Positions 30,762-62,910 of a stretch of 64,000 nucleotides of DNA are shown one piece after another. The DNA lies in assembly GCA_947044365.1 (NCBI GenBank), contig OX345651.1:2719926-2783925 (forward strand). Reading direction: 5' to 3'. The stretch is from Petrosia ficiformis (lineage: Eukaryota; Porifera; Demospongiae; Haplosclerida; Petrosiidae). Numbering within the stretch: position 1 is the first letter of the stretch; each line of letters opens with the position of its first letter. The translations under genes and the position numbers were made by a program. The notes under the pieces are model-generated. The model was not told the DNA's origin and ran no database searches. It saw nothing but the letters and a program-made list of their open reading frames with translations.

Positions 30762-30850
30762 GTTTCTTCCATAATGTATCAAACCTGTTTATTTGGAGTT
30801 GTCTGAAACCTTCTCTATCATTAGGGTTGTGAATATGGAGCACAATCATA
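30762..30850 (-). pseudogene. C-terminal relic of a deaminase gene (D0)
   Basis: The + strand sequence GTAGTTTCTTCCATA...TCAAACCTGTTTAT..GGAGTTGTC, then ACCTTCTCTATCA, matches the 3' part of the deaminase gene at 32131-32760 (32200-32290) at the DNA level. Only the part encoding the segment around L-L-I-N-R-F-D-I-R-V-W survives and the frame is broken. An orphan leader exon with an intact donor lies upstream at 31314. Confidence 0.75.
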
Positions 30851-31313
30851 TATGTACATATGTATACATGTATTAAATAGAAGTGTTGGTTTCCATATAC
30901 ATGTACATGTAGTTATTAGATGTATAATTATACAATACAATCTATAGACACCACATCTACACAAGTACATCTATACTAGTGGTTTCACAGTAATGGTTAT
31001 GGTTATAGTATGCCTGACTCTCAAGCATTTAGTTTAGTTTACTGGAATTATATTGGCCTTACTAAAGAAAGTGCTTTGGTTATAGTTAACTACAGTATAA
31101 CCAATTACATGTATTGGCAAATTTTCATTTTAGTTAGTTAGAAGTTATTGTTGCAGACCTGTATACATGTAGTTAGTTAATTAAAAGTTACTAAAAGAGG
31201 TTGTTAACTTGTTATACACATGTACATGTAGGTGTGCATGTAGTTAACTAATACAACACTAATCTATACATATACAATGTATACACATGTATAGTGTAGT
31301 ATATTCTTCTTAC

Positions 31314-31362
31314 CTGTTTAATACTTCCTTTTAGGATATCTCACTTCTCTGTTATTACTTAA
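31314..31362 (-). other. Orphan leader exon of the deaminase family (for D0)
   Basis: On the - strand a segment containing GAGATATCCTAAAAGG runs into AAACAG/GTAAGAAG, the same leader and donor as the functional genes (compare 33413 and 36391). The coding body downstream is reduced to the scrap at 30762. Confidence 0.6.
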
Positions 31363-32130
31363 GTCAATGTGTATACATGTATACATACACATGTATATAC
31401 AGTGATTATGCAATCATCCAGATCACTATATTCATATTATAATGATTATATTTTGCTGATGGTATAAAATTATTCATATAGATCACATGATATTTTAACA
31501 GTAATTACGTGTTTCTAAGGAAGTAATATTTTACTAGAAGCCCCACCTTTAGGATAATAGTTATTTCTTTAGTATACAACTATGAGTATTCCAGTGATCT
31601 GGTGTTTCCTTGAAGTGGTTATTTGAATGTGAAGATTAGTTGTTTCATAGATTGATTCTACACTAATCCATGTATATATTATCATATGTATTGGAAGTTA
31701 ACTAATCTGTTTTTATTAATATGGTAACAAAAATGATCAAATTTTATCATGTGTATTGGAAGTTAACTAATCTGTTATTATTAATATGGTAACAAATATG
31801 ATCAAATTTTATTCTGCCTTTATTTTATCTTATGAATATAAAACTCAAAAGCCTAATACATGTACATGTAGTGCTTGTCTGTTTTCATTTTTTTATAGTT
31901 CTTTCACAACTTTAGAAGTGCTTTTCAGTTAGTAAAACTAAAGCTAGTTAGTTATTTAGTATTTTTTATTAATTGACTGGAATTTTGAGCTTTAAAAATA
32001 CTAAACTTAATTACAAACATACATGTACAGTATGTGTAGTAATGGTGCCAGGAACATAGAATGATCTTTAGATTACTCTGACAAATAAATTCTTGTCACA
32101 TGATTACAAATACTAATAAACTAAGATAAT

Positions 32131-32760
32131 TTAAACTTCTTTCTTTAATTGTCTTATATAGTTTTCTGTTTGAGTATCTGATCCGTACCTCATATCATGT
32201 AGTTTCTTCCATACTCGTATGTCAAACCTGTTTATCAGGAGTTGTCGGAGACCTTCTCTATCACTATGGTTATGCAGACGATATATTTGTCCAACAAAAA
32301 TAGTAGGTTTATAATGACAGTATTCAAAATGCTTTATCAGTTCTTTAGAGCAGGCGTCACATGGGGAGTTTTCAATCCATAATGTTGTTATACCGTTAGG
32401 TTGTTGATTACTATCAATAAACAATATCTCTGCATGTTCACCACCTGGTGTATTAATAAACACTTCCCTTTCATTAGTCCACAAGAGAGTACCATGTTCC
32501 TGTATTGCTCTTTGTGCTACTTCAGTTTCATCATACATGTGTTCATGGTATGGCACTTCTTCATCAGTGTAGTCATTGTTACTGTTAACATAGCTTGTGT
32601 TTCTATTTTCTAAATCTAGGATTTCAGGGTTTTCTTCATCATAGACAGGCGCTTCTTTTTGTTGCCTTGTTTTTTTCTTCTCCTCATACCATCCACAGCA
32701 CATAATACAAATATAACAGAATATACAGGGGATAATAATAACTGCTAATATAGTTTCCAT
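32131..32760 (-). CDS. D1: membrane-anchored AID/APOBEC-like deaminase
   Basis: 209 residues. Residues 4-24 are a hydrophobic, Cys-rich anchor (AVIIIPCIFCYICIMCCGW) followed by EEKKK, which predicts a cytosolic C-terminus. A 60-residue acidic linker carries APVYDEE. The deaminase domain follows: H109-A-E111 and S-P133-C-D-A-C137 (zinc ligands and catalytic Glu), then PTIFVGQIYRL, an EGLRQLL helix and FDIRVW, the order seen in AID/APOBEC proteins (PCxxC, ARLY, EGLRRL). The leader exon ends at a donor at 33413 (AAACAG/GTAAG). The acceptor (CTCATAG) lies 3 bases before the ATG, giving a 649-bp intron. It forms a subfamily with the gene at 35435. Substrate unknown; nucleic-acid cytosine deamination is inferred from the fold. 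Confidence 0.85.
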   Translation of the reverse strand: METILAVIIIPCIFCYICIMCCGWYEEKKKTRQQKEAPVYDEENPEILDLENRNTSYVNSNNDYTDEEVPYHEHMYDETEVAQRAIQEHGTLLWTNEREVFINTPGGEHAEILFIDSNQQPNGITTLWIENSPCDACSKELIKHFEYCHYKPTIFVGQIYRLHNHSDREGLRQLLINRFDIRVWKKLHDMRYGSDTQTENYIRQLKKEV

Positions 32761-32763
32761 TTT

Positions 32764-33412
32764 CTATGAGTAACAATAAAAAGAGATCCATTAATTGACC
32801 ATAGTGGAATGTACAAGAACATATAATTATATACATGTAGTCATTAATAAACACCGCAGTAGTTTTAACAGTAATTACTATACTATACTGACAGTAGAAC
32901 TAAGGTAATTATTGTTACTGTATGTTACTGTATGTAGCACATGTACAGTACATTGTATATAGAATTATGTATCATAATTTATAGATGTAGTACATTGTGT
33001 TACCCTAGCAACCTAATAGACATGCAGGTAGTATATCAATAATATACATGTACATGCATAGTATGTTCAGCTCATAAAAATACATGTATATTATCTATTG
33101 AATCATAATAAATGAATACATGTACATGTATTGTATAATAATATCATAACATGTACATGTATATGTAATATACATGTACCTCTTGCAGTTGCTGGTTTAC
33201 AGGTTTATGGAGACATAAATTATAAATACATGTACACTTTCTGATTATGTAATAATTATTATTATATATAATTATAATTTTATAATGCATCTACTAATCA
33301 TTTATGATATACACATGTAGTTTAAAATGTATACATTAATTTTCATTGGCAGTCAGTCACATGTATACATAAATATTGTATGTAGAATTGTACATAATAA
33401 TATTCTTCTTAC
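32764..33412 (-). other. Intron in the 5' UTR of D1
   Basis: GTAAG donor on the - strand at 33412 and AG acceptor at 32764. It contains TACATGTA repeats and a partial M2 MITE (32862-32950). Confidence 0.6.
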
Positions 33413-33959
33413 CTGTTTTAATTCTTTCCAGGATATCTCACTTCTCTTTGGTATAAATCTCTTATATATAATTTTGGAATTGATTGCGCAATGAATCACA
33501 GAAATATTGTGTATTATATTGTATATTTACTAGTAGATTTGAATAATAATTATTCCTGGAAAGTCCCTGGTAATTCCTCCATTGTTCTATTTTTAGACTA
33601 ATTCATGACATTATTATAAATCACATGACATGGTAATAGTGCATGATTGATGTTACAAAGGAACTGTTTAACCACAAGCCCAAAAGTCATTAGGACGAGT
33701 ACATAGCTAGTAGTTATTCCAGTAATCTACTGTTTTGTTGAACTTGTAATTACCGGTCCTTTGATGATCATTATACCTGATATATACTTTACTGCTGTTT
33801 CATAAGTAATTTTATAATAAATTCAAACATGTACGTTATATGTAGTGTACATGTAAGTACATGTACCTGCATTGTATACATGTATACTTACTTAATATGT
33901 ACCATTTATATTGGAATTTTGAAATGGGCTAAGTTACTAGTAACATGGTAACAAAATGT

Positions 33960-34170
33960 GTTTCTACACTAAGTGACCCTCCCCCTTCGGGAAGGTTACA
34001 GTAAATGGTTTGGAAAAATGTATGTCTGTGTGTCTGGTACACCGCTGTACCTCAAGAACTGGACATTCCTGGACTTCCATACTTAACATGAATACGCTCC
34101 TCCAAATTGGCAAGTACAAGCACTCACTAATATTTTTTTTTTACCATACTAGAAGCTATCAAAAAGGGCA
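33960..34170. repeat. Probable dispersed repeat
   Basis: Segment richer in G+C (CCCTCCCCCTTCGGGAAGG, then TGTCTGGTACACCGCTGTAC) than its surroundings and without coding potential. It looks like an inserted repeat, but no second copy was found in this window. Confidence 0.3.
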
Positions 34171-34174
34171 AGAA

Positions 34175-35095
34175 AACTGCTAGGTGTGGCTTGATTCAGT
34201 CTTCCAGACTCTTCCTGCATCTAACAAAGCATGAGTTTTACATCACTGGCTGTCTTAATGACTCCTTTTTCCAATTTAGAACCTTTGAACATGTATACTT
34301 CGAAAGTTATAGTTTCATGAAACACTCTGCCCATAATTATAGCAAAAATTAACTAGTATATAAATCTGCGAAATTAGGGGAGGGAGGATCATGCAACCTT
34401 CAGTTGCTCTATATTTATTTTCTGCTGCTGTTATTCATATCCAACATGGACATGTACATGTACAGCTATATTACATCACTATGTCACTATGCCACATTGT
34501 CACATTTGTTGTCAATTTTGATTGGTCAGCCAGTTATATGCACCTTGTGCATTATGGTATTTGAAATAATTGCTTACACTAAGATGGTTCAGATCAGATT
34601 CATGACAAATTAATAAATTAAAATCATATAGGCTGTTTGCTTTGAAGTGTGCACAAGTTATGTAATTACATGTATATTAATTAAAGTATCTGCAACAGAA
34701 GAAGGTCATTGCAAAGAGCATATGTACATACAAATTCATGTGCCTAGCATGCTGGCGAAAGATGTAGAAACAATTAACAAATAAACACAACAAACAAGCA
34801 GCTACAATGGCTTATAAAATTCATAAAACACAGCCACAACATTTACGTTTAGCTGCTAATTATTGAACTAAAAGCCCTATCTGCTGCAGAGATAAATGTA
34901 TTTTTACACAAATGAGCAGCATTTGATATAAATTAATTCAAACTACATATTATAATCGAATTGTCTGTTGAAAATCAAGATGGCTTCAAAATTAGTCTAC
35001 ACTGATTAATTTTTTCACTATAAGACTAATGTATTGTACCTCAATAATGAAGGAATAGTTTGAAATATATGTGCAATTGTACATGTACATCAGAG
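34175..35095. other. Non-coding stretch between D1 upstream region and D2
   Basis: No supported gene; small open frames lack coding character. Confidence 0.35.
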
Positions 35096-35096
35096 T

Positions 35097-35256
35097 TGTA
35101 GAAAGAAAGAAAAAAAGACACCTGAGGCAATGGAAAAATGAAAATGAGAGTAGCCTCAGGTGGGATTCGAACCCACGACACTCTGTACTTGAGACAGATA
35201 CTCTACCAACTGAGCTACTAAGGCAGCTCAGCTGACAGGGTCCGAATGAAACATCT
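35097..35256 (-). mobile_element. tRNA-derived SINE, copy 1 (complete cloverleaf)
   Basis: Reading the - strand: flank ATTCGGACCCTG, then a 73-nt tRNA-like body (35224 to 35152), then CTCTCATTTTC..TTGCCTCAGGTG and a (TTTC)n tail. The body folds fully: acceptor GCCTTAG/CTGAGGC, D stem GCTC/GAGT, anticodon stem TCTGT/ACAGA with loop CTCAAGT, T stem GTGGG/CCCAC with TTCGAAT. A second copy in the opposite orientation is at 51290, sharing flank and tail. Confidence 0.7.
35152..35224 (-). tRNA. tRNA-like cloverleaf, anticodon CAA, short variable loop
   Basis: All four stems pair (one G-U in the acceptor stem, one at the base of the D stem). Loop CTCAAGT gives anticodon CAA (Leu, UUG), but a real tRNA-Leu has a long variable arm and this one has only GTGTC (5 nt). 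No intron. Because it shares flanks and tail with a second copy, it is more likely the SINE head than a working tRNA gene. Confidence 0.4.
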
Positions 35257-35434
35257 CATACGCCTGTATGAACAGACTAAGTTTACACAAGGCATGTACA
35301 TGTACATCATAGTTTTGATATGTCTTGAAGCATGGGCCCAATTGGCCTAACAATGGTTAGTGTGTGCACCATTGAGAATACATCTTGAGCCAATTAACAA
35401 AGAGTTAATGCTATTAGTGACAATATAATCATAA

Positions 35435-36169
35435 TTAACTGTGCCATCTGGACCACAACAAAAGAACTGCACAATTATATTTTAATCGTCTTATATAGTT
35501 TTCTGTACTAGTATCTGATCCATACATCTTATCGTGTAATTTCTTCCATACTCGTATATTAAACCCGTTTTTCAGCAGTTGTTGGAGACCTTTTCTATGA
35601 CTAGAGTCATCAAGATGCCATATCCGTCCCACAAAAATGGTAGGTTTTTGATGTTGGTGACGAAAATGATTTATTAATTCTGTAGAGCAATTGTGACATG
35701 GAGAATTTTTAATCCTCATTGTTGATATATGGTGAGGTTGTCTCTTGCTAGTGATGAAGAGTATTTCTGCATGTTTACCACCTGGTGTGTTAATGAATAC
35801 TTGTTTTTTATTAATCCATAAAAGAGTACCAGGTTCCTTATCTGCTCTCTCTGCTACTTCATCTTCATTATTCATGTACTCACAATCTATTGATTCATCA
35901 GTGTAGTCATGTACTGTTAACATTGGTTGTGTTTCTCCTTTTTCTAAATCAATATTGTTTGGTTCAACTTGTTTTAGTACACATTCTTGTGTATCATAGA
36001 CAGGTGCTACTTTATACTGTCTTCTTTGTTCCGTCTCCTCATCAGAGCCACAGTATACATATACATAGCACGCTATACATATGCACAAGGGAATAGCCCC
36101 AAATACTGATAAAAGAATAACCCCAACTACTGCTATCGATATACTCTCTGTATGATCAAGCTCCATCAT
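35435..36169 (-). CDS. D2: membrane-anchored AID/APOBEC-like deaminase
   Basis: 244 residues (two adjacent ATG codons; the acceptor CCCAG directly precedes the first). Anchor at residues 11-40 (ISIAVVGVILLSVFGAIPLC then ICIACYVYVYC), then an acidic linker containing APVYD. Deaminase domain: H133-A-E135, S-P157-C-H-N-C161, PTIFVGRIWHL, KGLQQLL and FNIRVWKKL. The tail after RRLK runs on for 14 residues with no match to D1, where the protein stops. Leader exon donor at 36391, 221-bp intron. Closest relative in the window is D1. A duplicate of the D2 3' flank (35310-35450) is found at 37261-37400 without a gene body. Confidence 0.85.
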   Translation of the reverse strand: MMELDHTESISIAVVGVILLSVFGAIPLCICIACYVYVYCGSDEETEQRRQYKVAPVYDTQECVLKQVEPNNIDLEKGETQPMLTVHDYTDESIDCEYMNNEDEVAERADKEPGTLLWINKKQVFINTPGGKHAEILFITSKRQPHHISTMRIKNSPCHNCSTELINHFRHQHQKPTIFVGRIWHLDDSSHRKGLQQLLKNGFNIRVWKKLHDKMYGSDTSTENYIRRLKYNCAVLLLWSRWHS

Positions 36170-37260
36170 CTGGGAATAGTGATAAAAGGGAGGAAGAAAT
36201 ATTAATGAAGAATTGCAATATAATATCTTTTGACTTGTATAGAACAGCTAAGAAAGTAAAAATACCTAAAGTACATTTTGCTGAGTTAGCTATGTACAAG
36301 TAACATACCAGGAGTACATGTACGGTACTATACAATATACATGTACATGTAATATACAACATACATGTTATATACATGTATGTTTCTTACCTGTTTATTT
36401 GTTTGTATCACTTCAATTCTTCACTTCAACTAGCTTACATGTATTACCAGCATCTAGATAATTGTCTGCATTATGTACTGAATGATTGCTCAATAATCTT
36501 ATAATAACATACACAATGTACATATACAACATGTACTATTACTATAATATTTACTATATTATTTACTGACAGCGTCCAAATTATTTGCATAATTTAGTTA
36601 TTCTTATGCTCCTGAAAACACTCTGGTGATTTCCCTCATCAAGTTGTTTCTATTTTTAAATTAATCCATGACATCATATTGTTAGGTTTTTTATATTGAT
36701 CACATACAGCTGTACATGTAATATCATGAAGAAAGTTACATAATACATGTTTTGATGATTACTAGAAGTCCAGAGCCACGTCAAATGGCTTACTAGCTGT
36801 AGATTATATTATCATGGCAAATACTTATTTCATATTAATAGTACAAAATTCAAAGTACATGAAATTATGCTTGGGCAGTATCACATTCTTGGACAAAAAG
36901 CTCAAGTCTATATTTGGTATAGGTGACTTGCTATTTAATATTTAACTATGTATAATTATATACATGTACATAGTACACATGTATATATTTATTAGTTTTA
37001 GTATTAAATTGTATAACTTATATACTTCAAGAAATAGCTGCTTTGATCTAAGAATAATCTGGTTTACAATCAAGTTAACAAACTATAGATCTGTATACTC
37101 TAACTAATACACACAATAATTTTTTATTATGGTGTATGAATATTAATTATTAGTTGAAAATTAAAAAGGGGGCTTTAGCCCCCTAGCCTCCCCTGTACAT
37201 GTATAATCTACACACACTACATCCAAACATGATTGTAATTTGCACATTACATATACATCA

Positions 37261-40407: not shown

Positions 40408-40783
40408 CTATGATCTATCTATACATGTGTATTGAGCCTCTTGTTTAATATCTCTGAGGTACTTATGAGTTTTACGGCTATCTGAACCATTCAGTGTAGT
40501 ATGAAGAGTCTCCCATACTTCTAATTCAAAACCATGTTGCAGTAGTCTTTTCAAACCCTCAATATTTTCTTGATTATCTGGTTGATATATACGCCCAATA
40601 TATATTGTAGGCTTTCTTTGATAGAGCCGAAAGTGGGCTGTTAAATGTTGAGCACAATCAGAACACACGGTTCATCTCATGAGCTAACGTAATTGCCTCA
40701 TCATCTGTATAATCTTTGACTTGATCAATGGGTTTTGTTACTCTGTTGCGGTGGTGTCTACAACGTGACTTTTGCTTGTTGGT
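40408..40783 (-). pseudogene. D3: deaminase pseudogene with central deletion
   Basis: From an acceptor-like TTTCACAG at 40784 the frame reads NRVTKPIDQVKDYTDDEAI, then TLAHEM. The next bases jump straight to the part encoding CSDCAQHLTAHF, removing about 45 residues that include the H-A-E motif and the first Cys of P-C-x2-C. The frame also shifts by one at the junction (TGA in the old frame). The C-terminal half is otherwise intact (PTIYIGRIYQ, EGLKRLL, FELEVWETLH). No anchor-coding part is found. The leader donor region at 40919-40943 has been split by a TACATGTA insertion. Confidence 0.8.
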
Positions 40784-42106: not shown

Positions 42107-42718
42107 CTATGTATTACGAACTTCTTCTTTAACATCTCTGAGGTAGTTATGAGTTATACGACTGTGTGGACCATGCTTCTTAGTATGAAGAGTCTCCCAC
42201 ACTTCCAACTCAAAACCTTGTTGACATAGATTTTTTAATCCCTCACGATCTTCTTGATTATCTATTTGATATATATGTCCAACATATATTATAGGCTTCC
42301 TACAATGTTGAAAGAAATTTATCAATACTCGTGAACATCCAGCACATGGGGAATTCTTGATCCATATTGTAGTAATTTTATGTGCTTGTGTTTTCCTAGT
42401 AAGGATGAATTCAGCATGTGTGTATGGTGGATCACTATTGCTACGATACAGCTTTCCTTCATTAGTTAGTAGATGAGTGACACCATTTTCACTGTGTGCT
42501 ATTTGTGCTGCTTCATATTCACTAAAACATCTCTCCTCTTCTCTGTAATGAAACATATATGCATTATAGCTTCCTCGAGATCCAAATGATTCGGCATGAG
42601 GTTGTATCCATGGTTCATTTTGAGTAGCCCATATAATTATTTTGCAAATGAACAATACTATCAATACTATCCCTACTATCAATAGTATCAGTACACCAAT
42701 AATAGTTGCACCATCCAT
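42107..42718 (-). CDS. D4: membrane-anchored AID/APOBEC-like deaminase
   Basis: 203 residues. Strong anchor at 6-30 (IIGVLILLIVGIVLIVLFIC). The linker ends CFSEYEAAQIAHSEN, the start of the domain in this subfamily. THLLTNEGKLYRS precedes H101-A-E103; S-P124-C-A-G-C128; then PIIYVGHIYQI, EGLKNL and FELEVWETLH. Leader exon ends at 42803 (CAAGAG/GTAAGTG). Acceptor (CTACACAG) is 7 bases before the ATG; intron 77 bp, among the shortest. An inverted pair with TATGAATATAATTATAAT and ATTATATTCATAG lies upstream (42910-42960). All catalytic positions are present; expected to be active. Confidence 0.85.
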   Translation of the reverse strand: MDGATIIGVLILLIVGIVLIVLFICKIIIWATQNEPWIQPHAESFGSRGSYNAYMFHYREEERCFSEYEAAQIAHSENGVTHLLTNEGKLYRSNSDPPYTHAEFILTRKTQAHKITTIWIKNSPCAGCSRVLINFFQHCRKPIIYVGHIYQIDNQEDREGLKNLCQQGFELEVWETLHTKKHGPHSRITHNYLRDVKEEVRNT

Positions 42719-45137: not shown

Positions 45138-45788
45138 CTATATAATGTGTTTCTGCTCTTTGATTTTCATGTAATAGTTGCAGGGAAAATCTGCTGCTTT
45201 TCTTCTCAAACGTAGCAGATATTTTTGAGTATCCAAGGAACTAGTTTTCGAATTTAGATTGCATAAAGTTTCCCATACTCGAATATTAAAACCTTTCTTT
45301 ATCAAACAAATTAATTGCTTGTCATCTTCTTGATCGTGTTTTTGATATATTTCACCTACAAATATATCGGGCTTTGTGTATCCCTCAAAGTATGTCTTCA
45401 GTTTTCGAGAGCATAATGAACAAGGTGATTTCTTAATCCACAATTCGGTGATATCTTTTTTAATACTCGTTGTATCCTCCATGAATAGTATTTCAGCATG
45501 TCTTGTTACAGAGCTCAAATAAACTTTCCCTTCATTTGTTCGTAAGATTGTCACACTTTTCATTTTTTGTGCTAACTTAGCCGCCTCTTCTTCTGTATAG
45601 AGTATGTCTAAATGTGAGCTTCTTCGTTTCTTTTTACTCCCTGTGATCCAATTGCAAAGTTTTGTTTGTAGTCCATTCCATATCTTTACATTTAATTTGG
45701 TACTACAACAGCGGTAGTATACTATTATGAATGTGATCATAACTATCAGAAGAATACCAATTGTATTTCTTTCTGTGATTTCTTCCAT
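45138..45788 (-). CDS. D5: membrane-anchored AID/APOBEC-like deaminase
   Basis: 216 residues. Anchor at 9-26 (NTIGILLIVMITFIIVYY) followed by RCC and a basic linker (KKKRR at 52-56). YTEEEAAKLAQKMKSVT opens the domain; RTNEGKVYLSS precedes H97-A-E99; S-P122-C-S-L-C126; then PDIFVGEIYQK, LICLIKKGFNIRVWETL. The C-terminal tail (AADFPCNYYMKIKEQK) is longer than in relatives. The first exon ends at 46121; the 320-bp intron is largely a (TGTC)n and (TG)n microsatellite. It is intermediate between the D4 group and the D9/D10 group. Catalytic residues are complete. Confidence 0.85.
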   Translation of the reverse strand: MEEITERNTIGILLIVMITFIIVYYRCCSTKLNVKIWNGLQTKLCNWITGSKKKRRSSHLDILYTEEEAAKLAQKMKSVTILRTNEGKVYLSSVTRHAEILFMEDTTSIKKDITELWIKKSPCSLCSRKLKTYFEGYTKPDIFVGEIYQKHDQEDDKQLICLIKKGFNIRVWETLCNLNSKTSSLDTQKYLLRLRRKAADFPCNYYMKIKEQKHII

Positions 45789-45800: not shown

Positions 45801-46058
45801 CTAAAAATAAACATTTTGTTTATCTGCCTGTCTGTCTGCCTGTCTGTCTGTCCTTCTTTGTCTGTCTGTCTGTCTTTGTCTGTCTGTCTGTCTCTGCCGG
45901 CCTGTCTGCCTGTATGTCTGTCTACTGACAATACAGTTCCAATATTATATTTGTAGTAGAAAAACCAGTTTAGTTGTCTGTCTGTCAGTCTGTGTACATG
46001 TCTCTGTCTGACTGTGTCTGTCTCTCTGACTGTGTGTATGTGTCTGTATGTCTGTCTG

Positions 46059-47737: not shown

Positions 47738-48244
47738 TTATAAAACTGTACACCATCTTTGTTTAATAGTCTCTTGTTTCATTGCTTCAATATATTCATA
47801 TAGTTCAGTATTATCTATACTGTACGTTTTATCATGTAAAGATTTCCACACCTCCATCTCAAAACCTTCTCTAATTAAATTCTTCAATCCTTCACGATCA
47901 TTATCATTGTATGGTCTATATATCCGTCCAATGTATAATCTAGGTTTATTATAGTAACGAAAAAAATTGCTTAATATCTGGGAGCAGTGAGCACACGGGA
48001 ACTTTTTAATCCATATTGTTTTTATTTTGTCTGGTTTGGCTTTTCCAGTAAATACTATCACAACATGTTTGGAGTTTGTACTACGATACAGCTTTCCTTC
48101 ATTTGTTAGTAGATGAGTGACATTTTCTTCATCATAAGCTATCTGAGCTACTTCATACTCTTTATAATATTTAGTTTCGAAAAATATACTGTAGATTAGG
48201 ATCCATATAAGGAAAATACAAGCCCCAAACTCCAAATATGTCAT
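47738..48244 (-). CDS. D6: deaminase-family protein lacking the catalytic glutamate
   Basis: 168 residues, the shortest complete member. The anchor (residues 4-22, LEFGACIFLIWILIYSIFF) is followed almost directly by the domain (YYKEYEVAQIAYDEENVTHL). LLTNEGKLYRS is intact, but the catalytic motif reads K-H60-V-V62 instead of H-A-E: two substitutions (GCT to GTT, GAG to GTG) at 48061-48066. The Cys pair P83-C-A-H-C87 is kept, though the usual Ser before it is Phe. Downstream PRLYIGRIYRP, EGLKNLI and FEMEVWKSL are intact. Leader donor 48538 (CAA/GTAAGTT), 285-bp intron, acceptor TTATGCAG. Zinc binding may persist without catalysis: a pseudoenzyme, regulator or recent casualty. Confidence 0.8.
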   Translation of the reverse strand: MTYLEFGACIFLIWILIYSIFFETKYYKEYEVAQIAYDEENVTHLLTNEGKLYRSTNSKHVVIVFTGKAKPDKIKTIWIKKFPCAHCSQILSNFFRYYNKPRLYIGRIYRPYNDNDREGLKNLIREGFEMEVWKSLHDKTYSIDNTELYEYIEAMKQETIKQRWCTVL

Positions 48245-49779: not shown

Positions 49780-50523
49780 TTAGTAATACATGTAATTGTA
49801 TACTTGATTATTAAGTGACATCATATCAGCTTCTTGTTTCACTTCTCTGAGGTATTTTTGTGTGGTTTTGCTACGAGTAGGATACATCAATGTATGTAGT
49901 GTCTCCCACACCTCTAACTCAAAACCATTCTGCAGTAGATTTATCAAACCTTCACGATCTTCTTCATCATTCAGTCGGTAAATACGTCCAAAATATATTT
50001 TAGGTTTTCGAATTTTGTGAAAGAAAGTAATTAAAACTTTAGAACATTTAGCACATGGTGAATTTTTGATCCATATAGTGTGTATATTACATGTACATGG
50101 TAGTGTGTCTCTTGTAAAAAGAACTTCAGCATGTAGAAATGGTCGAACACGTTGACTTCGATATAATTTACCTTCATTAGTCACTAGATGAGTCACACGA
50201 TCTTCACTATATGCTATACGTGCCATATCTTCTAGCCAGCTTGGTTGTGTATGACATGCCTCATTCTGTCTGTGTGCAAAGTGTACCTCTTGTTGCCAAC
50301 TAGTGCTTCCTGGATTTGTATGATGTACTTCAGGTCTGCTATTTGTTGAGTATGTATAGTGTACTTGAGGTCTGTTATTTCTTGGATATGTATGGTGTAC
50401 CTCAGGTCTGTTATTTCTTGGACGTGTCTCTTCCTGCCTGTTGGTATTATCTCGACGTAGAAGTGAAGCAACAAATTCGATTCCTATTGATACCAAAGCA
50501 GCAATTCGACTTCTAAACGACAT
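49780..50523 (-). CDS. D7: AID/APOBEC-like deaminase with long repeated linker
   Basis: 247 residues from ATG 50523, chosen because the acceptor (TTTACTTTTCAG) ends one base before it; longer frames to 50619 run through the intron. Hydrophobic N-terminus at 7-22 (IAALVSIGIEFVASLL) is weaker than other anchors. Linker 24-95 holds three or four copies of an R-N-N-R-P-x-V-H-x-T-Y-P-like repeat. H131-A-E133, S-P156-C-A-K-C160, PKIYFGRIYRL, EGLINLL, FELEVWETLH. Leader exon ends 50676 (CAAAG/GTAAG), intron 151 bp. Closest to D8. Confidence 0.85.
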   Translation of the reverse strand: MSFRSRIAALVSIGIEFVASLLRRDNTNRQEETRPRNNRPEVHHTYPRNNRPQVHYTYSTNSRPEVHHTNPGSTSWQQEVHFAHRQNEACHTQPSWLEDMARIAYSEDRVTHLVTNEGKLYRSQRVRPFLHAEVLFTRDTLPCTCNIHTIWIKNSPCAKCSKVLITFFHKIRKPKIYFGRIYRLNDEEDREGLINLLQNGFELEVWETLHTLMYPTRSKTTQKYLREVKQEADMMSLNNQVYNYMYY

Positions 50524-50524
50524 T

Positions 50525-50675
50525 CTGAAAAGTAAAGTTTCTATAATAACACTCCACTCTACTAATATAAGTACATGTATATTAATAATAATTATAACGT
50601 ACATATATAATGTGGACATAGTGTTCCTAGAATATGCCTAATTTCTGACCGCCTATCTTCATATAGTGGTCTTAC
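50525..50675 (-). other. Leader intron of D7
   Basis: GTAAG donor at 50675, TTTTCAG acceptor ending at 50525. Confidence 0.7.
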
Positions 50676-51289: not shown

Positions 51290-51400
51290 TCGGACCCTGC
51301 CAGCTCAGTTGGTAGAGCATCTGTCTGGAGTACAGTGTGTCGTGGGTTCGAATCCCACCTGAGGCAACTCTCATTTTTCATTTTTCAATTGCCTCAGGTG

Positions 51401-51701: not shown

Positions 51702-52478
51702 TTAGTTATACATGTACATGTGGTTATGTGCCATATTGTATGTTGCTTGAGCTTCTTGTTTCACTTGTCGGAGGTATTTGTGTGCAGTTCTGTTGTGACT
51801 ACCATACATCATCGTATGTAGTGTCTCCCACACCTCTAACTCAAAACCATTTTGCAGTAGATCTATCAAACCTTCACGATCTTCGTCATCATCCAGTCGG
51901 TAAATACGCCCGAAATATATTTTTGGCTTGCGATTGTTGGAAAAGAAATTAATTAACACTTTTGAACATCTAGCACATGGTGAATTCTTGATCCATATAG
52001 TGTGTGTTTTATATGGAAGTGCAGCTTTTGTAAAGAGAATTTCAGCATGTTGAGTTTGTGTACTGCAATATAACTTATTCTCATTGGTTAGTAAATGGGT
52101 AACACCCTCTGCACTATGTGCTATACGTGCCACATCTTCCAGTCTGCTACAGCTTGGTTGTGTATACCATACTTCATTCTGTCTGTTATTTCTTGAACAT
52201 GTAGGGAGCTGCTCTTGTCTCAGACTGTTATCTCTTTGATGTGTATAGCATCCCTCCCGTGTGTTGTTTATTGGGTGTGTAGGGTGTACCTCTTGTCTTT
52301 GGTGTGTATGGCGTGTCTCATCTTGCCTATTATTTCTTGAATGTGTACGACGCCGTGCCTCCTCCTGTGTGTTATTATTTGTTTGGTTTGTGAATGAAGC
52401 AGCAGCTACAGCTAGTGCTGCAATACCTCCTAATACTACAGTAGCACCAAGAACAATAACACTTCCAAGTATAGACAT
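51702..52478 (-). CDS. D8: membrane-anchored AID/APOBEC-like deaminase with long linker
   Basis: 258 residues from ATG 52478, which lies 4 bases after the acceptor (ATTTCAG). Anchor residues 4-28 are Gly/Ala/Val-rich (GSVIVLGATVVLGGIAALAV). The linker 30-112 has repeated S-R-N-N-R-Q-(D/N)-E and H-P-T-H-P words, like D7 but rearranged. Domain: THLLTNENKLYCS, H144-A-E146, S-P167-C-A-R-C171, PKIYFGRIYRL, EGLIDLL, FELEVWETLH. Leader exon ends 52633; intron 150 bp. A copy of its leader, intron and first codons lies at 60478-60720 and a smaller relic at 54056-54115. Confidence 0.88.
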   Translation of the reverse strand: MSILGSVIVLGATVVLGGIAALAVAAASFTNQTNNNTQEEARRRTHSRNNRQDETRHTHQRQEVHPTHPINNTREGCYTHQRDNSLRQEQLPTCSRNNRQNEVWYTQPSCSRLEDVARIAHSAEGVTHLLTNENKLYCSTQTQHAEILFTKAALPYKTHTIWIKNSPCARCSKVLINFFSNNRKPKIYFGRIYRLDDDEDREGLIDLLQNGFELEVWETLHTMMYGSHNRTAHKYLRQVKQEAQATYNMAHNHMYMYN

Positions 52479-54115: not shown

Positions 54116-54119
54116 CAAT

Positions 54120-54903: not shown

Positions 54904-55489
54904 TTATGTTGTATATGGTGACATCCTTTTTTTGCTCAAACGTACATGTAACAGATAGTTTCTTATTTCTCGTACAGTTTGCCGATCCTGTTGGAAAGAT
55001 TCCCAAACTTGTATGTTAAAACCCTCTTTCATGAGATCCTGTAATCCTTCGTCATCGTGTTTCTTTTGTTGTTGGAAACTTTTCCTATAAATATATTCGG
55101 CTTTGTATGACAGGACTTGAAATATGTCATCAAACATTGAGCACAATCAGAACATGGTGAATTTGTAATCCACAATTCTGTGATGTCCACAGGATTTGGT
55201 GTACTTTCTATGAAAACTATTTCAGCATGTCTTGTTAGAGAGTTAATGTGAGCTAACTTAATGGCCTCATGTTTGTTCGTAACAGTGTCACACCTTTCAT
55301 CTCATGAGCTAACTTAATTGCCTCATGATCTGCATAATATTCCTTTTGATCAATGGGTTTTGTTACTCTTTTTGATTCTGGAATGTACATATTAACATTT
55401 GTAGGTCTTAAATATTGTATTATAAGCACTATCACAATGACCACTACCACGCTGATGAAAATCATGGAACCAATCGATATATCATCCAT
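54904..55489 (-). pseudogene. D9: deaminase pseudogene with a templated local duplication
   Basis: 5' half (55489-55253): anchor GSMIFISVVVVIVIVLII, IPESKRVTKPID and the domain opening DHEAIKLAHEMKGVTLLRTN. 3' half (55146-54904): frame-shifted domain end (EGLQDLMKEGFNIQVW). Between them the DNA still encodes RHAEIVF and TNSPCSDCAQ. The segment that should follow CGAACAAA (compare D10, AAGGAAGAATTTACATT) has been replaced by ATGAGGCCATTAAGTTAGCT, a copy of sequence located about 60 bp upstream in the same gene. This breaks the frame. The leader donor is split by a CATGTACATGTA insertion (55545-55562). Confidence 0.85.
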
Positions 55490-56170: not shown

Positions 56171-56174
56171 AAAA

Positions 56175-56640: not shown

Positions 56641-56644
56641 GTAT

Positions 56645-57137
56645 CATACATTTATGTCTTTCTTGAGATCCTGTAATCCTTCATCATCTTCTTTCTTTTG
56701 TTGTCGATATATTTTTCCTATAAATATACCTGGCTTTGTATGACAGGATTTGTCAAGTTCAAATGATTTATCAAATGTTGAGCACAGTTATAACATGGTG
56801 AATTTGTAATCCACAATCCTGTGATGTCCTCAGGATTTGGTGTATTCTCTATGAAAACTATTTCAGCATGTCTTGTTAGAGAGTTAATGTAAATTCTTCC
56901 TTTATTTGTTCGTAAGAGTGTCACACCTTTCATCTTATGAGCTAACTCAATTGCCTCGTCATCTGTATAATCTCTATTTGGATCAATGTATGTTGTTACT
57001 CTTGGAGATTCTGGGATCCACATGTAAATGTTGGGATTCTGAGACCTTCTTTGTTGGGCATTTTTACGTTTGTAACATACTATTGTAAGCACGACTGCCC
57101 CAATGACCACTACAATCCATATACATGTATTATCCAT
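56645..57137 (-). pseudogene. D10: deaminase pseudogene, frameshift and truncated end
   Basis: 139 residues are read from ATG 57137: anchor (CIWIVVVIGAVVLTIVC), NPNIYMWIPESPRVT, YTDDEAIELAHKMKGVT, RTNKGRIYINS, H90-A-E92 and S-P114-C-Y-N-C118, all good. After HLN the frame slips by one. The other frame continues SCHTKPGIFIGKIYRQQ, DDEGLQDLKKD and ends at a stop where relatives continue with GFNIQVW. So the zinc centre is intact but the C-terminal strand and helices are lost. It probably decayed recently; a short expressed protein cannot be excluded. Confidence 0.8.
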
Positions 57138-57427: not shown

Positions 57428-57499
57428 AAGTACACATGTATATATATAATAGGCTTACATGTAACATGTATATAAAATGTATCATACTTGTACAATTGC

Positions 57500-57990
57500 T
57501 TTTATCAGGGGTGGATCCAGGGAGAGTCCTGGAGTGCATTTGCACCCCCTTTTCTACTCACTAATGGAAAGGTGTGCCTTAATAGCCATGAATTTGTTTC
57601 GTGTATAATTACATGTAAGTACATGTAAATGCATAATTCCAGTATATATGTGCCGTGTACATACGTGTACATGTACATTTTGTATATTCATTGTATAATT
57701 ATTATAAATATTCATTACTCAAAGATACTTGTAATATTTGAAACAAGCTACACTTGTACATGTAACAAAGATTTTCAATATTGTGTATAGTCAAACTACA
57801 ATATGGAAAAGATATAGATGTATTAATTGTCAGTGTAACTAATGTGTATGATTATTACTAATGAAGTGTCTATAATGATAATGTATAATTATTATGGATA
57901 TTAATGCACTGTTCATGACATGTATATAGTATTTAATAACTAATAAATAATTTCACACCATTAGCAACAACTGAATTGTCATTATTTATT
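57500..57990. repeat. Duplicated spacer, first copy
   Basis: GCTTTTATCAGGGGTGGATC through the AATATTGTGTATAGTCAAAC stretch to the D11 stop is matched at 61623-62090 before D12. AATAAA on the - strand (57990-57985) is 9 bases after the D11 stop, a likely poly(A) signal. Confidence 0.8.
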
Positions 57991-57998
57991 GATTGTTG

Positions 57999-58574
57999 TT
58001 ACGAAATAATGCAGTCACTGTTTTGTGGCCTTGGATTATGAGCTGTTTGTTTAACATCTCTGAGGTAGTTATGTGTTTTACGACTGTATGAACCATACAT
58101 CATAGTATGAAGAGTCTCCCACACTTTCAACTCAAAACCTTGTTGTACTAGATTCATCAAACCCTCATTGTCTTCTTGATTATCTGGTCTATATATACGT
58201 CCAACATATATTATAGGCTTTTTTCTACAATTGTTGAAAAATTGTATTAATACTTGTGAACATTGAGCACATGGTGAATTCTTGATCCATATTTCAGTAA
58301 TATTATGTGCTTGTGTTTTCCTAGTAAAGATGAATTCAGCATGTGTGTATGGTGGATCACTATTACTACGATACAGCTTTCCTTCATTAGTTAGTAAATG
58401 AGTGACATGATCTTCACTGTGTGCTATTTGGGCTGCTTCATATTCACTGAAACATTTCTCTTCTTGTCTGTTATGGCGTGTCTCCTCTTGTTCTCGACTT
58501 AGAGCATAAATAGCAGCAGCGGCTGCCAAAGCTCCTATACCAGTAGCAATGATATTTCCAAGGTCTGATGACAT
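57999..58574 (-). CDS. D11: membrane-anchored AID/APOBEC-like deaminase
   Basis: 191 residues from ATG 58574, four bases after the acceptor (AATTTCAG/GAGA-ATG). Anchor 5-25 is Gly/Ala-rich (LGNIIATGIGALAAAAAIYA) and has a GxxxG-like pattern. Linker EQEETRHNRQEEKCF is short. Domain: SEYEAAQIAHSEDHVTHLL, H78-A-E80, S-P101-C-A-Q-C105, PIIYVGRIYRP, EGLMNLV, FELKVWETLH. Leader exon ends 58681 (CAAAG/GTAAG); intron 102 bp. It is a tandem duplicate of D12: same intron length, same C-terminal tail (NPRPQNSDCIIS), and matching spacers. D12 has one extra linker repeat. Confidence 0.9.
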   Translation of the reverse strand: MSSDLGNIIATGIGALAAAAAIYALSREQEETRHNRQEEKCFSEYEAAQIAHSEDHVTHLLTNEGKLYRSNSDPPYTHAEFIFTRKTQAHNITEIWIKNSPCAQCSQVLIQFFNNCRKKPIIYVGRIYRPDNQEDNEGLMNLVQQGFELKVWETLHTMMYGSYSRKTHNYLRDVKQTAHNPRPQNSDCIIS

Positions 58575-58578
58575 TCTC

Positions 58579-58680
58579 CTGAAATTGTTAGTAATATTAA
58601 CACAAAACTCATTATAATTATACTGCACATTATGTCTCCTTCCATTTTTATGTTTGTCTGTTTTGATATTGTGGACTTAC
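58579..58680 (-). other. Leader intron of D11 (102 bp)
   Basis: GTAAGTCC donor, TTTCAG acceptor; same length as in D12. Confidence 0.75.
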
Positions 58681-58760
58681 CTTTGAATTTGGTTTTCTTT
58701 TGAATTATCCTTTAAGTTCTTTAGTATTGAATATCTCACACTAACCCTTAGCCTGTTCTG

Positions 58761-58784
58761 TTACTGGAAATTTAAAAACACGTG
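58761..58784 (-). promoter_or_regulatory. D11 promoter box
   Basis: TTACTGGAAATTTAAAAA directly followed by CACGTG (58779-58784), about 80 bp upstream of the leader donor. The core GGAA/TTCC resembles an ETS or STAT half site; CACGTG is an E-box. Conservation among duplicates is visible, binding is inferred. Confidence 0.5.
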
Positions 58785-59075
58785 AGGTACACGTGTAATT
58801 ATAAAACTGGCTTGTATATTGAGTGTAGCATCCATGTACAATTACATTTATGACAAACATGTAGTACTCTAGTAGTATATTGTATAGAAATATTTATTAC
58901 ATATACATATACATATGTATAACTTAAAGTTTCTGTTACAATGTAGGTATGTTTAATAATCCACTCAGTCCCACTGTATTATACAATATAACTATAATTA
59001 TTGTTATTGTATACAGGTAGTGTTCCTAGAATATATCTACTTACATGTACATGTCTACATATAGCATAGTCTTAC

Positions 59076-59125
59076 CTTTGAATTAGATTTTTTCTTCTGA
59101 TCCTCTTCTCAATTCTTTAGTGTTA
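59076..59125 (-). other. Additional leader exon (orphan or alternative for D11)
   Basis: CAAAG/GTAAGAC at 59076/59075 with the leader sequence upstream (AACTAAAGAATTGAG-like). D11 already has its own leader at 58681. Confidence 0.5.
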
Positions 59126-59825
59126 TTAGGAAACTACGAAATATGGGTAGTTTGTACACACATGTAGGTGGAGATAACAACATAACTAGCTTATATATAC
59201 TCAATAATGTTAGGTATATCATATATGACTACTATATACATGTACATGTTATTACCGTGACTTATTATACAGGGATTATGGTTAATACAAATGCCTACAT
59301 ACAGTGGTGTACATGTATGTACATGTATAATTATGATTACACATGTTATGTGATTATTGTGTCTTAAATTAATAGAACAAATCATGCACTGCCTTTGTAA
59401 TGCATGCAGTACATTACATGTAGGTTATATCCATATACATATGTACTATTGTATATTATAGCTGTTATATATACTAATACATATATAAACCTCATAGGTA
59501 TGACAGCTCTGACAGGTGTATCTGTTGTAATTTTCTAGTTGCAGTTATAGTTTATGAAAGATATGTGACTACTACATGAATAAAATCATTGGGTTGCTCC
59601 ACAGATATCTATGTCAAGGGATTACTTCTTTAATAGAACCCTTCGTATGATCGTTTTGCAGGCAAAGTGTCTATAATAGCACATTATCAAACAATGTTTA
59701 CCATAGCAACAACGAATCCATACATTTTCAATTAGACATTCAAATCACGCACTACGACAATATTTTCCAGTATTTTTATCGAGTCATATGACCGGAAGTT
59801 TTATTGCACGGAAAATCACCTGACC

Positions 59826-60305
59826 GGAAGTTTTATTGTATTGCGTGTCACATCTCACATGCTGCTAAGTAAAAATTGTGTAGGAAGAGATTACTCTCTA
59901 ATTTCTTTAGTTTTGGCGATGGTGAAGTTAGTAAACATGAGTTGTGATAAAATTATGAACGAGGTAAGTTATGTTTATGATAAAATGTGAAAGTAGAGAA
60001 GTTTATATATGTTCAGTGCTGAAAGTCTTTTTTTCGGGTTGGAGGTTGCCCGAGATAGCTACTGTTTTGGGATTTAACTTGTGAAATGCTTCAAGATTAC
60101 CATCCTTATCATGATAGTTTGAATAATAAAGTACTGCTAAGTAGTAATAGGCAAAAACAAGCATTATTTGATAAATATATTATCGCACAGATACCCGGGA
60201 AATATTACGAGTTGGATACAGCGTGCCACTCGTCCTTCGGACTCGTGGCAACGCTGTATCCAACTCGTAATATTTCCCGGTATCTGTGCGATAATATATA
60301 TATCA
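59826..60305 (+). repeat. Dispersed repeat R2 with hairpin, second copy
   Basis: Reverse complement of 23640-24112. Hairpin arms are 60172-60232 and 60237-60300. The frame of about 85 residues spanning it is by-product. Upstream part: two TGACCGGAAGTTTTATTG words (59790 and 59822), then ATG GTG AAG TTA... and a perfect GTAAGT donor near 59964. Confidence 0.8.
59931..59962 (+). CDS. Candidate short first exon inside repeat R2
   Basis: ATGGTGAAGTTAGTAAACAT (MVKLVNMSCDKIMNE over 15 codons) ends at GAACGAG/GTAAGTT, and two ETS-type ACCGGAAGT words lie 100-140 bp upstream. No convincing second exon is seen, and the sequence is also present in the inverted copy at 24 kb. Probably a fragment of a captured gene start. 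Confidence 0.25.
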
Positions 60306-60477
60306 GTATTTACAAAGAGCCACTGATAAGCATCACTATATAATATAGAGAGAGTTTCACTATTCTTATTGAACTATGATACATCATCATACAATAAAGT
60401 GCAACAATGGATTTGATTTCTGTTCCATAGAAACACTAACCACAACAATTACTGCTATATACACTAGCAACAGAAAT

Positions 60478-60720
60478 AAGTATTGCTAGTGCTGCAATAC
60501 CTCCTAATACTACAGTAGCACCAAGAACAATAACACTTCCAAGTATCGACGACATATTCCTGAAAATTAAAAACCCCATTACTTATAATAATACTAATAT
60601 ACAATGTTATTGTATATTAGTGTTCCTAGAATATACACTCCTCATATAGTGGTCTTACCTTTGAATGGGATCTTCCTTTGAATCCTCTTCTTGAGTTCTA
60701 TAGTATTGTTAGTTTAGATG
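60478..60720 (-). pseudogene. 5' stub of a D8-type deaminase gene
   Basis: Leader exon (donor 60659/60658), leader intron and the first roughly 27 codons match D8 (52411-52700) almost base for base (CAATACCTCCTAATACTACA, GCACCAAGAACAATAACACT). Downstream of 60478 the sequence is unrelated, so anchor-coding sequence is present without a deaminase domain. Confidence 0.85.
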
Positions 60721-61078
60721 TTATAGTGCTGGCTTCCTTTTACAAAGAAAAAGTGAAGTATTGAAGTATACGCTTGTTTTGACACCTTGATTTGACAGGT
60801 AGTGTCAGATGACCACAGTGTACATGTATATACGCAGTTACATGTATGGTATACATGTACATATAGACTAAATATATTTATATGTACTACCATATACGGT
60901 ACTTGTTATTCGTGTTATTTGTGTATGCAACAAGTATAATTACAACAGTTAATACTCTGCAATGTGTCTCTGGGGTATTACATTATTACATACTAGCATG
61001 ATTGCGTAATAATAACTGGTCAAACCAGATCACAATGTTGATATTGTATGTTATACACAGTGACACAGACACCCAGTC

Positions 61079-61310
61079 TATTTGTTTTGTTACTCTATGA
61101 CTTGGAGATTCTGTAATGTACATGTAAGCATTGTATGGATCCTCTTTACATTTGAAATATAATATTGTAAGCACTATCACAATGACTGTCACAATGGCTG
61201 CTGCTACAATCAATATATAATCCATTGCCTTTGTTGATAGAGAAGCTGAGCATGAAATTATATGTACATGTATAATTTATCACTTACCTCTTCTTCAATG
61301 AAGACTTGTA
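61079..61310 (-). pseudogene. 5' stub of a D10-type deaminase gene
   Basis: From ATG 61225: anchor MDYILIVAAAIVTVIVIVLT, then YMYITESPSHRVTKQID. At 61079 the similarity to D9/D10 stops and the sequence becomes a copy of the D8 upstream region (52920-53015). Leader donor at 61287 (GAAGAG/GTAAGTG) is intact, showing the form that D9 had before its insertion. Confidence 0.85.
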
Positions 61311-61533
61311 AAATGAAATCTGAGAAGTAATGAAAAATGAATCAGACCTCTTCTAAATATTGCTTTTATAATCATTATAATTATGTGTATATGTATGTCC
61401 ACATGTTATATATTAGAATGTGTTTATGTTCATATAGTGGACTTACTTTGAATTTGGGTTTCTTTTGAATTATCTTCTCAAATTCTGTTACATGTAGCTT
61501 AGAAGACCTCGGACTAGCCCTGAAACTGTATTG

Positions 61534-61557
61534 TTACCAGAAATTGAAAAACAAGTG
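61534..61557 (-). promoter_or_regulatory. Family promoter box, orphan leader
   Basis: TTACCAGAAATTGAAAAA then CAAGTG. Leader donor CAAA/GTAAGT at 61447/61446 with no D11-type body directly downstream. The box differs from 57404 at the core (CCAG instead of CCGG). Confidence 0.45.
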
Positions 61558-61622
61558 AAGTACACCTGTATATATAAAATAGGCTTACATGTAACGTGTA
61601 TCATACATGTACATGTACAATT

Positions 61623-62095
61623 GCTTTTATTAGGGGTGGATCCAGGGGGAGCCTGGAGTGCATTTGCAGCTCCTTTTCTACTCGTTAATGGAAAGGTGTG
61701 CCTTAATAACCATGAATTTCAATGTTTTGTATAATTACATGTATATGTAAGTAAATGCATAATACCAGTATACATGTATATTGTGCCTTGTATATACATC
61801 AAATTGTATAATTATTATGAATATTCGTTACTCAAAGATACTTGTAATATTTGAAACAAGCTACATTTGTACATGAAACAAAGATTTTCAATATTGTGTA
61901 TAGTCAAACTAACTGATTACAATATGGAAAAGAATTAATTGTCAGTGTAATTAATGTGTATGATTATTACTCATGAAGTGTCTATTATGTATAATTATTA
62001 TGGATATTAATGCACTGTTCATGTAGTATAGTATTTAATAACTAATAAATTTTTCACACCGTTAACAACAACAGAATTGTCATTATTGATTGTTG
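61623..62095. repeat. Duplicated spacer, second copy
   Basis: Matches 57500-57990. Differences include a CATGTA unit present in one copy only and TATATA/ACATGT exchanges. Confidence 0.8.
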
Positions 62096-62689
62096 TTATG
62101 AAATAATGCAGTCACTGTTTTGTGGCCTTGGATTATGAGCTTTTTGTTTAACATCTCTGAGGTAGTTATGTGTTATAAGATTATATGAACCATACATCAT
62201 AGTATGAAGAGTCTCCCACACTTCCAACTCAAAACCTTGTTGTACTAGATTCATCAAACCCTCACGATCTTCTTGATTATTTGGTCTATATATACGTCCA
62301 ACATATATTATAGGCTTTCTACAATTGTTAAAAAATTGTATTAATACTTGTGAACATTGAGCACATGGTGAATTCTTAATCCATATTTTAGTAATGTTAC
62401 GCGCTTGTGTTTTCTTGGTCAAAATAACTTCAGCATGTTTAGAGGGATTGGTTTCATTACGATACAACCATCCTTCATTAGTTAGTAGATGAGTGACATG
62501 ATCTTCACTGTGTGCTATTTGTGCTGCTTCATATTCACTAAAACATTTCTCTTCTTGTCTGTTATGGCGTGCCTCCTGTTGTTGTCTGTTATGGCGTGTC
62601 TCCTCTTGTTCTCGACTTAGAGCATAAATAGCAACGGCTGCCAAAGCTCCTATACCAGTAGCAATGATACTTCCAAGGGTCGATGACAT
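62096..62689 (-). CDS. D12: membrane-anchored AID/APOBEC-like deaminase
   Basis: 197 residues. ATG 62689 is four bases after the acceptor (GTTTCAG/GAGA-ATG). Anchor 5-25 (LGSIIATGIGALAAVAIYAL). The linker has two copies of the E-(T/A)-R-H-N-R-Q repeat, where D11 has one. Domain: SEYEAAQIAHSEDHVTHLL, H85-A-E87, S-P108-C-A-Q-C112, PIIYVGRIYRP, REGLMNLV, FELEVWETLH. Leader exon ends 62796 (CAAAG/GTAAG); intron 102 bp. Sequence around H-A-E (NPSKHAEVILTKK) differs from D11 (PPYTHAEFIFTRK) much more than the rest does, hinting at local exchange or selection near the active site. Confidence 0.9.
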   Translation of the reverse strand: MSSTLGSIIATGIGALAAVAIYALSREQEETRHNRQQQEARHNRQEEKCFSEYEAAQIAHSEDHVTHLLTNEGWLYRNETNPSKHAEVILTKKTQARNITKIWIKNSPCAQCSQVLIQFFNNCRKPIIYVGRIYRPNNQEDREGLMNLVQQGFELEVWETLHTMMYGSYNLITHNYLRDVKQKAHNPRPQNSDCIIS

Positions 62690-62693
62690 TCTC

Positions 62694-62795
62694 CTGAAAC
62701 TGTTAGTAATATTAACACAAAACTCATTATAATTATACCGTACATTATGTCTGGTTCCATTTTTATGTTTGTCTGTTTTGATATTGTGGGCTTAC
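62694..62795 (-). other. Leader intron of D12 (102 bp)
   Basis: GTAAGCCC donor at 62795, TTTCAG acceptor at 62694. Confidence 0.75.
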
Positions 62796-62886
62796 CTTTG
62801 GATTTGGTTTTCTTTTGAATTATCCTCTCAAGTTCTTTAGTATTGTTAGTTTAGAAGACCTCACACTAGCCCTGAAATTGTTCTGC

Positions 62887-62910
62887 TTACCGGAAATTGA
62901 AGAGCACGTG
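62887..62910 (-). promoter_or_regulatory. D12 promoter box
   Basis: TTACCGGAAATTG followed after five bases by CACGTG (62905-62910), about 95 bp upstream of the leader donor. Same arrangement as at 58761. Confidence 0.5.

Follow-up and report, generated by a model that had tools for sequence, protein, structure and literature searches.

Known AID/APOBEC-like enzymes and the array in Petrosia ficiformis

SNAD4 is known only from sponges and is described as secreted, the SNADs carrying a signal peptide (PMC11004436, PMC8201067). The AID/APOBEC-like enzymes of the sea urchin and Lingula are active and pathogen-inducible (Liu et al. 2018, PMC5956068). Here we describe a tandem array of AID/APOBEC-like genes, most of them with a predicted N-terminal membrane anchor, in a 64,000-nucleotide stretch of the genome of the sponge Petrosia ficiformis, hereafter the window (contig OX345651.1, abbreviated C16, positions 2719926–2783925; the genome examined comprises 191,215,263 bases in 29 contigs). 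A first-pass annotation of the window, made from its letters, had proposed eight intact minus-strand genes of the AID/APOBEC branch.

The array resembles the poriferan and other invertebrate AID/APOBEC-like enzymes, including SNAD4, in its superfamily, its expansion, and its fast evolution, and probably also in its phylum. It differs from SNAD4, described as secreted, in that most of its copies look anchored, that their lysine and arginine residues favor a cytosolic domain, and that the Pfam model PF18767 outscores the SNAD4 model in all nine window proteins. With the sea urchin and Lingula enzymes it shares the character of an invertebrate AID/APOBEC-like gene family; for those enzymes no anchor is described in the main text of PMC5956068, a term search of which for transmembrane, signal peptide, sponge, and porifera was negative. 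Those enzymes are active; the array enzymes are putative deaminases. Poriferan relatives have already been reported, and the apparent novelty of the array lies in its architecture: proteins that are mostly anchored, probably face the cytosol, and exchange catalytic tracts. A survey by Krishnan et al. in PNAS in 2018 reportedly covers Porifera, expansion, and exchange between paralogues. No membrane-anchored AID/APOBEC-like enzyme was found in the available text of the literature searched, in which this survey was not checked for anchored members. To our knowledge, AID/APOBEC enzymes are either intracellular or secreted.

Similarity of the window genes to AID/APOBEC deaminases

The window contains nine minus-strand open reading frames (ORFs) of 168–279 residues between positions 32131 and 62689. 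Each of them matched at least nine AID/APOBEC Pfam models at E ≤0.001, and the best model was PF18767 in all nine cases, with E values from 2.3e-29 (the subfamily B gene) to 3e-18; these matches are not due to chance. A profile search of the PDB with the nine window proteins matched 22 sequences, every one an AID/APOBEC protein, and the same search with 26 members of the family (alignment A3) matched 41 chains, again exclusively AID/APOBEC, among which APOBEC3G was the closest. The profile alignments place the HAE motif, the SPCxxC motif, the RIY strand, and the EGL helix on the corresponding elements of APOBEC3G. The zinc site (HxE followed by PCxxC) is present in eight of the nine ORFs and in 25 intact copies of the whole cluster. 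The ninth ORF has HVV in place of HAE, and thus lacks the catalytic glutamate, and FPC in place of SPC. Three further broken copies lie among these genes. The subfamily labels are our own: A–H cover the nine ORFs, and types I, J, and K were used beyond them. The features are listed below in window coordinates.

32131–32760, minus strand: intact deaminase gene, subfamily A, with the anchor METILAVIIIPCIFCYICIMCC, a basic stretch, a linker, and a domain with HAE and SPCxxC; an acceptor-like site ends at 32764, with no convincing donor
35435–36169, minus strand: intact deaminase gene, subfamily B, with a Cys-rich anchor; candidate intron 36390–36170
40498–40689, minus strand: broken copy, K type, with two stops inside the match
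42107–42718, minus strand: intact deaminase gene, subfamily C; candidate intron 42802–42738
45138–45788, minus strand: intact deaminase gene, subfamily D, with an anchor followed by a basic linker; no donor was found for the acceptor-like site ending at 45801
47738–48244, minus strand: subfamily E, open frame with an anchor and HVV; probably catalytically dead
49780–50523, minus strand: intact deaminase gene, subfamily F, start corrected (MSFRSR...), without a strong anchor; predicted intron 50675–50525
51702–52478, minus strand: intact deaminase gene, subfamily G, start corrected (MSILGS...), with an anchor lacking flanking charge; predicted intron 52632–52483
55005–55235, minus strand: broken copy, subfamily I, with one stop
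56757–56876, minus strand: broken copy, subfamily I, with anchor, HAE, and PCxxC present and the frame lost past the zinc site; a similar copy is at C16:2667438
57999–58574, minus strand: intact deaminase gene, subfamily H, start corrected (MSSDLGN...); predicted intron 58680–58579, with TACTAAC before the acceptor
58274–58454, minus strand: approximate C-type tract around HAE within the preceding H gene, delimited by informative sites (gene conversion)
62096–62689, minus strand: intact deaminase gene, subfamily H, the last copy of the array; predicted intron 62795–62694

The Pfam and PDB profile matches bear out the proposed membership in the AID/APOBEC branch. A best profile match outside the superfamily, which the annotation had named as grounds for abandoning the idea, was looked for in these searches and did not appear. 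It is strongly supported by sequence comparison that the array genes are AID/APOBEC-like. SWSPC is the second zinc motif typical of AID/APOBEC proteins, albeit not a strict one. The array members depart from this form; the residue before SPC is usually asparagine, giving NSPC in most intact members, and KSPC or NLPC occurs in some. APOBEC3G provides the closest solved structures by profile; the window members differ from it in this motif, which is SWSPC in APOBEC3G, and in being single-domain proteins. APOBEC3G is not known to have a membrane anchor.

The SNAD4 model also matched all 26 members of alignment A3. In a control search, human AID had no PF18767 match at E ≤0.01; its matches included APOBEC_N (223 bits), NAD1, APOBEC2, NAD2, and SNAD4. 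The window proteins matched APOBEC_N at 23.7–34.5 bits and PF18767 best. The array thus differs from vertebrate AID in its strong match to PF18767, although the A3 profile aligns with HVE, SPCYDC, and ARLY of AID. Because human AID misses this model, the Pfam label 'AID' is no evidence of AID orthology, and orthology argued from it was rejected; the model name itself looks misleading. Two other assignments were also discarded: three of the nine window proteins were submitted to PADLOC and matched no known anti-phage family, and the sole NCBIfam matches, found in two of the nine proteins, were under the curated cut-offs.

A 213-kb cluster grown by block duplication

Genome-wide, PF18767 gave 42 matches, all of them on C16 between 2569541 and 2782368; the SNAD4 model (36 matches) and APOBEC4_like (40 matches) hit only the same cluster. 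These profile searches ignore introns, and the counts are therefore lower bounds. Stops interrupt eight of the 42 matches, and several matches are fragments. HxE and PCxxC are both retained, in frames of 165 residues or more, by 25 copies. Only 12 matches lie in the window, which covers the far end of the array. When copies were assigned to the nearest of eleven chosen representatives, the run C-D-E-F-G-I-I-H, complete or partial, was seen four times in the cluster. Among the 122 duplicated stretches (800 bases or longer) revealed by self-comparison, the ten longest join these blocks at 86–98.5% identity. The block runs and the long duplicated stretches show that the cluster expanded as blocks of several genes were duplicated, some genes being lost within them.

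The first-pass annotation was right about the eight intact genes, and its picture of tandem birth and death with pseudogenes agrees with the 42-match cluster, the matches with stops, and the broken copies. The tandem array that it described is real and much larger than the window, extending over 213 kb, and the subfamilies, of which it had recognized at least three, are more numerous, the nine ORFs falling into eight.

Beyond the window, subfamily E is represented at C16:2646345, 2658410, and 2694458 by two full copies with a common stop and one fragment; its open frames are the window copy and the database protein P0016. Subfamily E could be a pseudoenzyme or simply dying.

Selection and exchange of catalytic tracts

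The ratio of nonsynonymous to synonymous substitution rates (dN/dS), pooled over 25 pairs from subfamilies B, C, D, G, H, and I, was 0.54 in the domain and 1.21 in the linker. Pairwise domain values were 0.19–0.24 in D, 0.25–0.34 in G, and 0.26–0.40 in H, and by this measure the intact domains of these three subfamilies are under purifying selection. The values were 0.57–0.80 in B, 0.78–1.13 in C, and 0.53–0.84 in I.

Two genes are clear mosaics. The copy at C16:2698713 is G-like in its anchor, linker, and tail, and F-like in the middle of the domain at 49 of 53 informative sites; a domain tree of 32 rows (d2713171, which did not match the SPC pattern, and d2715018 were left out) places it with F at a support of 99/97. 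The window gene at 57999–58574 is H-like except around HAE, where 22 of 25 informative sites are of C type; a run of 48 sites of H type lies on one side of this tract and a run of 17 on the other. The C-type tract is also present in a close copy of this gene at C16:2668777. Genes with differing anchors have exchanged catalytic tracts.

Predicted gene anatomy

The genes probably have a single coding exon, preceded by a first exon that is non-coding and by an intron of about 65–220 bases, a structure that we infer from the upstream sequences. An acceptor-like site scoring at least 0.78 ends within 25 bases of the conserved ATG in 25 of 28 genes, compared with 581 of 3000 ATGs picked at random within the cluster. 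This cut was picked after the values were seen, and at stricter cuts the counts for genes and random ATGs were 6 of 28 and 77 of 3000 (1.0), 0 of 28 and 27 of 3000 (1.1), and 0 of 28 and 6 of 3000 (1.2). In addition, the copies are related, and the count amounts to nine of ten subfamilies. Subfamilies F, G, H, and I have a common upstream block that ends in a GTAAG donor and contains no ATG (the copy F_d2648211, whose upstream sequence differs, was excluded from this alignment). Candidate donors were found in B and C, and none was convincing in A and D. The distance from the acceptor to the ATG differs in phase between subfamilies, which speaks against a common coding exon upstream. An upstream coding exon as the true N-terminus was rejected on these two grounds, the block without an ATG and the varying phase.

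With this structure, three starts in the window shift, to 50523 in the F gene, 52478 in the G gene, and 58574 in the first H gene. In the F ORF as originally called (49780–50619), the hydrophobic stretch precedes the conserved start and is enclosed by the conserved donor and acceptor sites. The short database contigs were considered as possible transcripts; P0012 and P0032 read the presumed intron as protein, so these contigs give no expression evidence. Motifs for NF-kB, IRF, STAT, and AP-1 were present upstream of 1, 3, 10, and 0 of 28 genes, against 0.1, 1.3, 3.3, and 1.0 expected from a crude shuffle; the genes are related copies, and the motifs were set aside.

Predicted membrane anchor and topology

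A segment was regarded as transmembrane-grade when a 19-residue window near the N-terminus reached a Kyte-Doolittle value of at least 1.6. With corrected starts, such a segment was present in 21 of the 25 intact genes and in seven of the eight in the window, the strongest of which is that of the C gene at 42107–42718 (3.65). The annotation had assigned a hydrophobic segment and a membrane tether to every gene; this holds for most members and for seven window genes but not for the F gene, whose stretch appears to be intronic and whose residual segment is weak (1.38). Many of the segments are long and stand after an acidic start and before basic or Cys-rich stretches.

Several observations weigh against a general cytosol-facing anchor. 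Hydrophobic segments of this kind are also carried by 20 of 46 control ORFs of the AT-rich cluster and by 1025 of 5000 shuffled N-termini, the copies of F and J have no anchor, and over the first 30 codons the pooled dN/dS reaches 0.91, a sign of weak sequence constraint on the anchor. Net charge favors a cytosolic domain in 10 of the 21 anchored copies, is equal in four, and favors the opposite orientation in seven. Because the mere presence of a segment is common in controls, the anchor claim rests on the conservation of the reading frame and on the relatives. In 21 pairs, with gaps counted where the region was more than 70% identical, the length was divisible by three for 40 of 47 gaps in the N-terminal coding part and for 31 of 31 in the domain. 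Upstream this applied to 28 of 99 gaps, and downstream to 19 of 82. Polar replacements within the segment were slightly below expectation (13 of 77 versus 27% expected, p 0.02). Lysine and arginine residues were more numerous on the domain side in 16 of the 21 anchored copies, equal in five, and fewer in none, which favors a cytosolic domain. This predicted orientation is best supported for A, D, and most I copies.

A lipid anchor was also considered for the copy at C16:2638791, outside the window, which starts with MGQYCCC, presumably a lipid-anchor-like motif; the relatives P0033 and P0036 do not have this start, and the idea was dropped.

Relatives in protein and virus databases

A search of 5.8 billion proteins recovered 18 relatives with one member as the query, 32 with an alignment of 15, and 9 with P0018, the sets overlapping. 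Most of the relatives come from two long contigs or from short contigs, apparently of the same or a very near species, and six of the first 18 are letter-identical to ORFs of the C16 cluster. On other contigs, P0018, P0050, P0051, and P0052 have two domains, a degenerate first copy and a second with an intact site, which resembles the arrangement in APOBEC3G. All four begin with a hydrophobic stretch followed by basic residues, the score having been computed for P0018 alone. In the domain tree they cluster together (98/98) beside the C–H group at a modest support (86/88) and on long branches; the family may thus have split before they diverged. No two-domain anchored gene was seen in the genome of the window. 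P0048, a distant relative, scores best on SNAD4. A viral origin or capture was rejected; 32 pattern matches were obtained in IMG/VR, and none was confirmed as a relative.

Other features of the window and the cluster

Two tRNA-like matches (Rfam RF00005) lie inside the array, at 35152–35224 on the minus strand (66.2 bits) and 51299–51366 on the plus strand (43.9 bits). A second repeated family occurs in and beside the cluster. Its window member, a secreted-looking ORF at 18447–19553 on the plus strand (SCSDILITNP...GGWTRIG), has similar ORFs at C16:2601429, 2614118, and 2789429 and more distant ones at 2573658, 2608474, 2671932, 2679645, and 2686668. By eye these proteins are like fibrinogen-type lectins; the window copy had no Pfam or PHROGs match at E 0.001. 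Nor did a 698-residue ORF at 11761–13857 on the plus strand, which by eye might be transposase-like. Self-comparison also showed tandemly repeated units of about 82 bases at about 7362–9463. A silicatein-type motif, searched for as a sponge marker, gave a single and uninformative match, which has the Cys form.

Discussion

We propose that the array encodes locally expanded, mostly anchored, cytosol-facing AID/APOBEC-like deaminases that act on viral or retroelement nucleic acid, a reading to which, taken as a whole, we give about an even chance. Each gene would have two exons, a short non-coding one and, after a short intron, one that encodes the membrane anchor, the variable linker, and a single catalytic domain. 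Most of the proteins would span the membrane once, their short N-terminal end lying outside and their deaminase domain in the cytosol, where this zinc enzyme would convert C to U in nucleic acid that is single-stranded. The targets may be viruses or retroelements copied or carried near membranes, and anchoring would hold the enzyme away from the nucleus. Block duplication, decay, and the exchange of catalytic tracts between differing anchors would keep the set diverse.

The array could instead encode SNAD-like enzymes that are secreted or lumenal. Their hydrophobic segment would then serve as a signal peptide or as an anchor facing the lumen, and their substrate would be microbial nucleic acid outside the cell or in endosomes. 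The secretion ascribed to the sponge-specific SNAD4 in the cited papers and the match of its model to every A3 member agree with this alternative, as does net charge, which fails to favor a cytosolic domain in 11 of 21 copies; in subfamily G, the segment ends in AVAAAS, which could be cleaved, and is followed by N-glycosylation sequons. Nevertheless, PF18767 beats SNAD4 in every window protein, no anchored copy has more lysine and arginine on the N-terminal side, and the long segments between an acidic start and basic or Cys-rich stretches also argue against it, and we regard this alternative as rather unlikely. Improbable, in our estimation, is a host family for RNA editing or nucleotide metabolism that was duplicated locally and has no role in defense. 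Such a family would be consistent with purifying selection on the intact domains of D, G, and H, but the copy number, the decay, the mosaics, and the linker dN/dS of 1.21 suit a conflict better than housekeeping, and the related invertebrate enzymes are pathogen-induced (Liu et al. 2018, PMC5956068).

It is still less probable that we are dealing with a mostly decaying family, in which many pseudogenes and pseudoenzymes surround few working enzymes. The stops and fragments, the loss of the catalytic glutamate in subfamily E, and the domain dN/dS of subfamily C, which approaches or exceeds 1, would be expected of decay. Against decay stand the 25 copies that retain both zinc motifs in long frames, the domain gaps, which are without exception multiples of three, and the domain dN/dS of D, G, and H, well below 1. 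Beyond the proposed cytosol-facing deaminases, a bolder version, which we consider doubtful, is a combinatorial membrane-targeted mutator, in which gene conversion would pair interchangeable catalytic cassettes with different anchors and so bring several specificities to several membranes. If true, an early animal would possess an innate equivalent of antibody diversification.

The array hints at an old, fast-changing defense. If it is indeed a large, fast-changing set of enzymes tied to membranes and probably facing the cytosol, it would add another means of directing a dangerous mutator against invaders without harm to the genome, and it would offer an early-animal system for testing the origin of mutation-based immunity.

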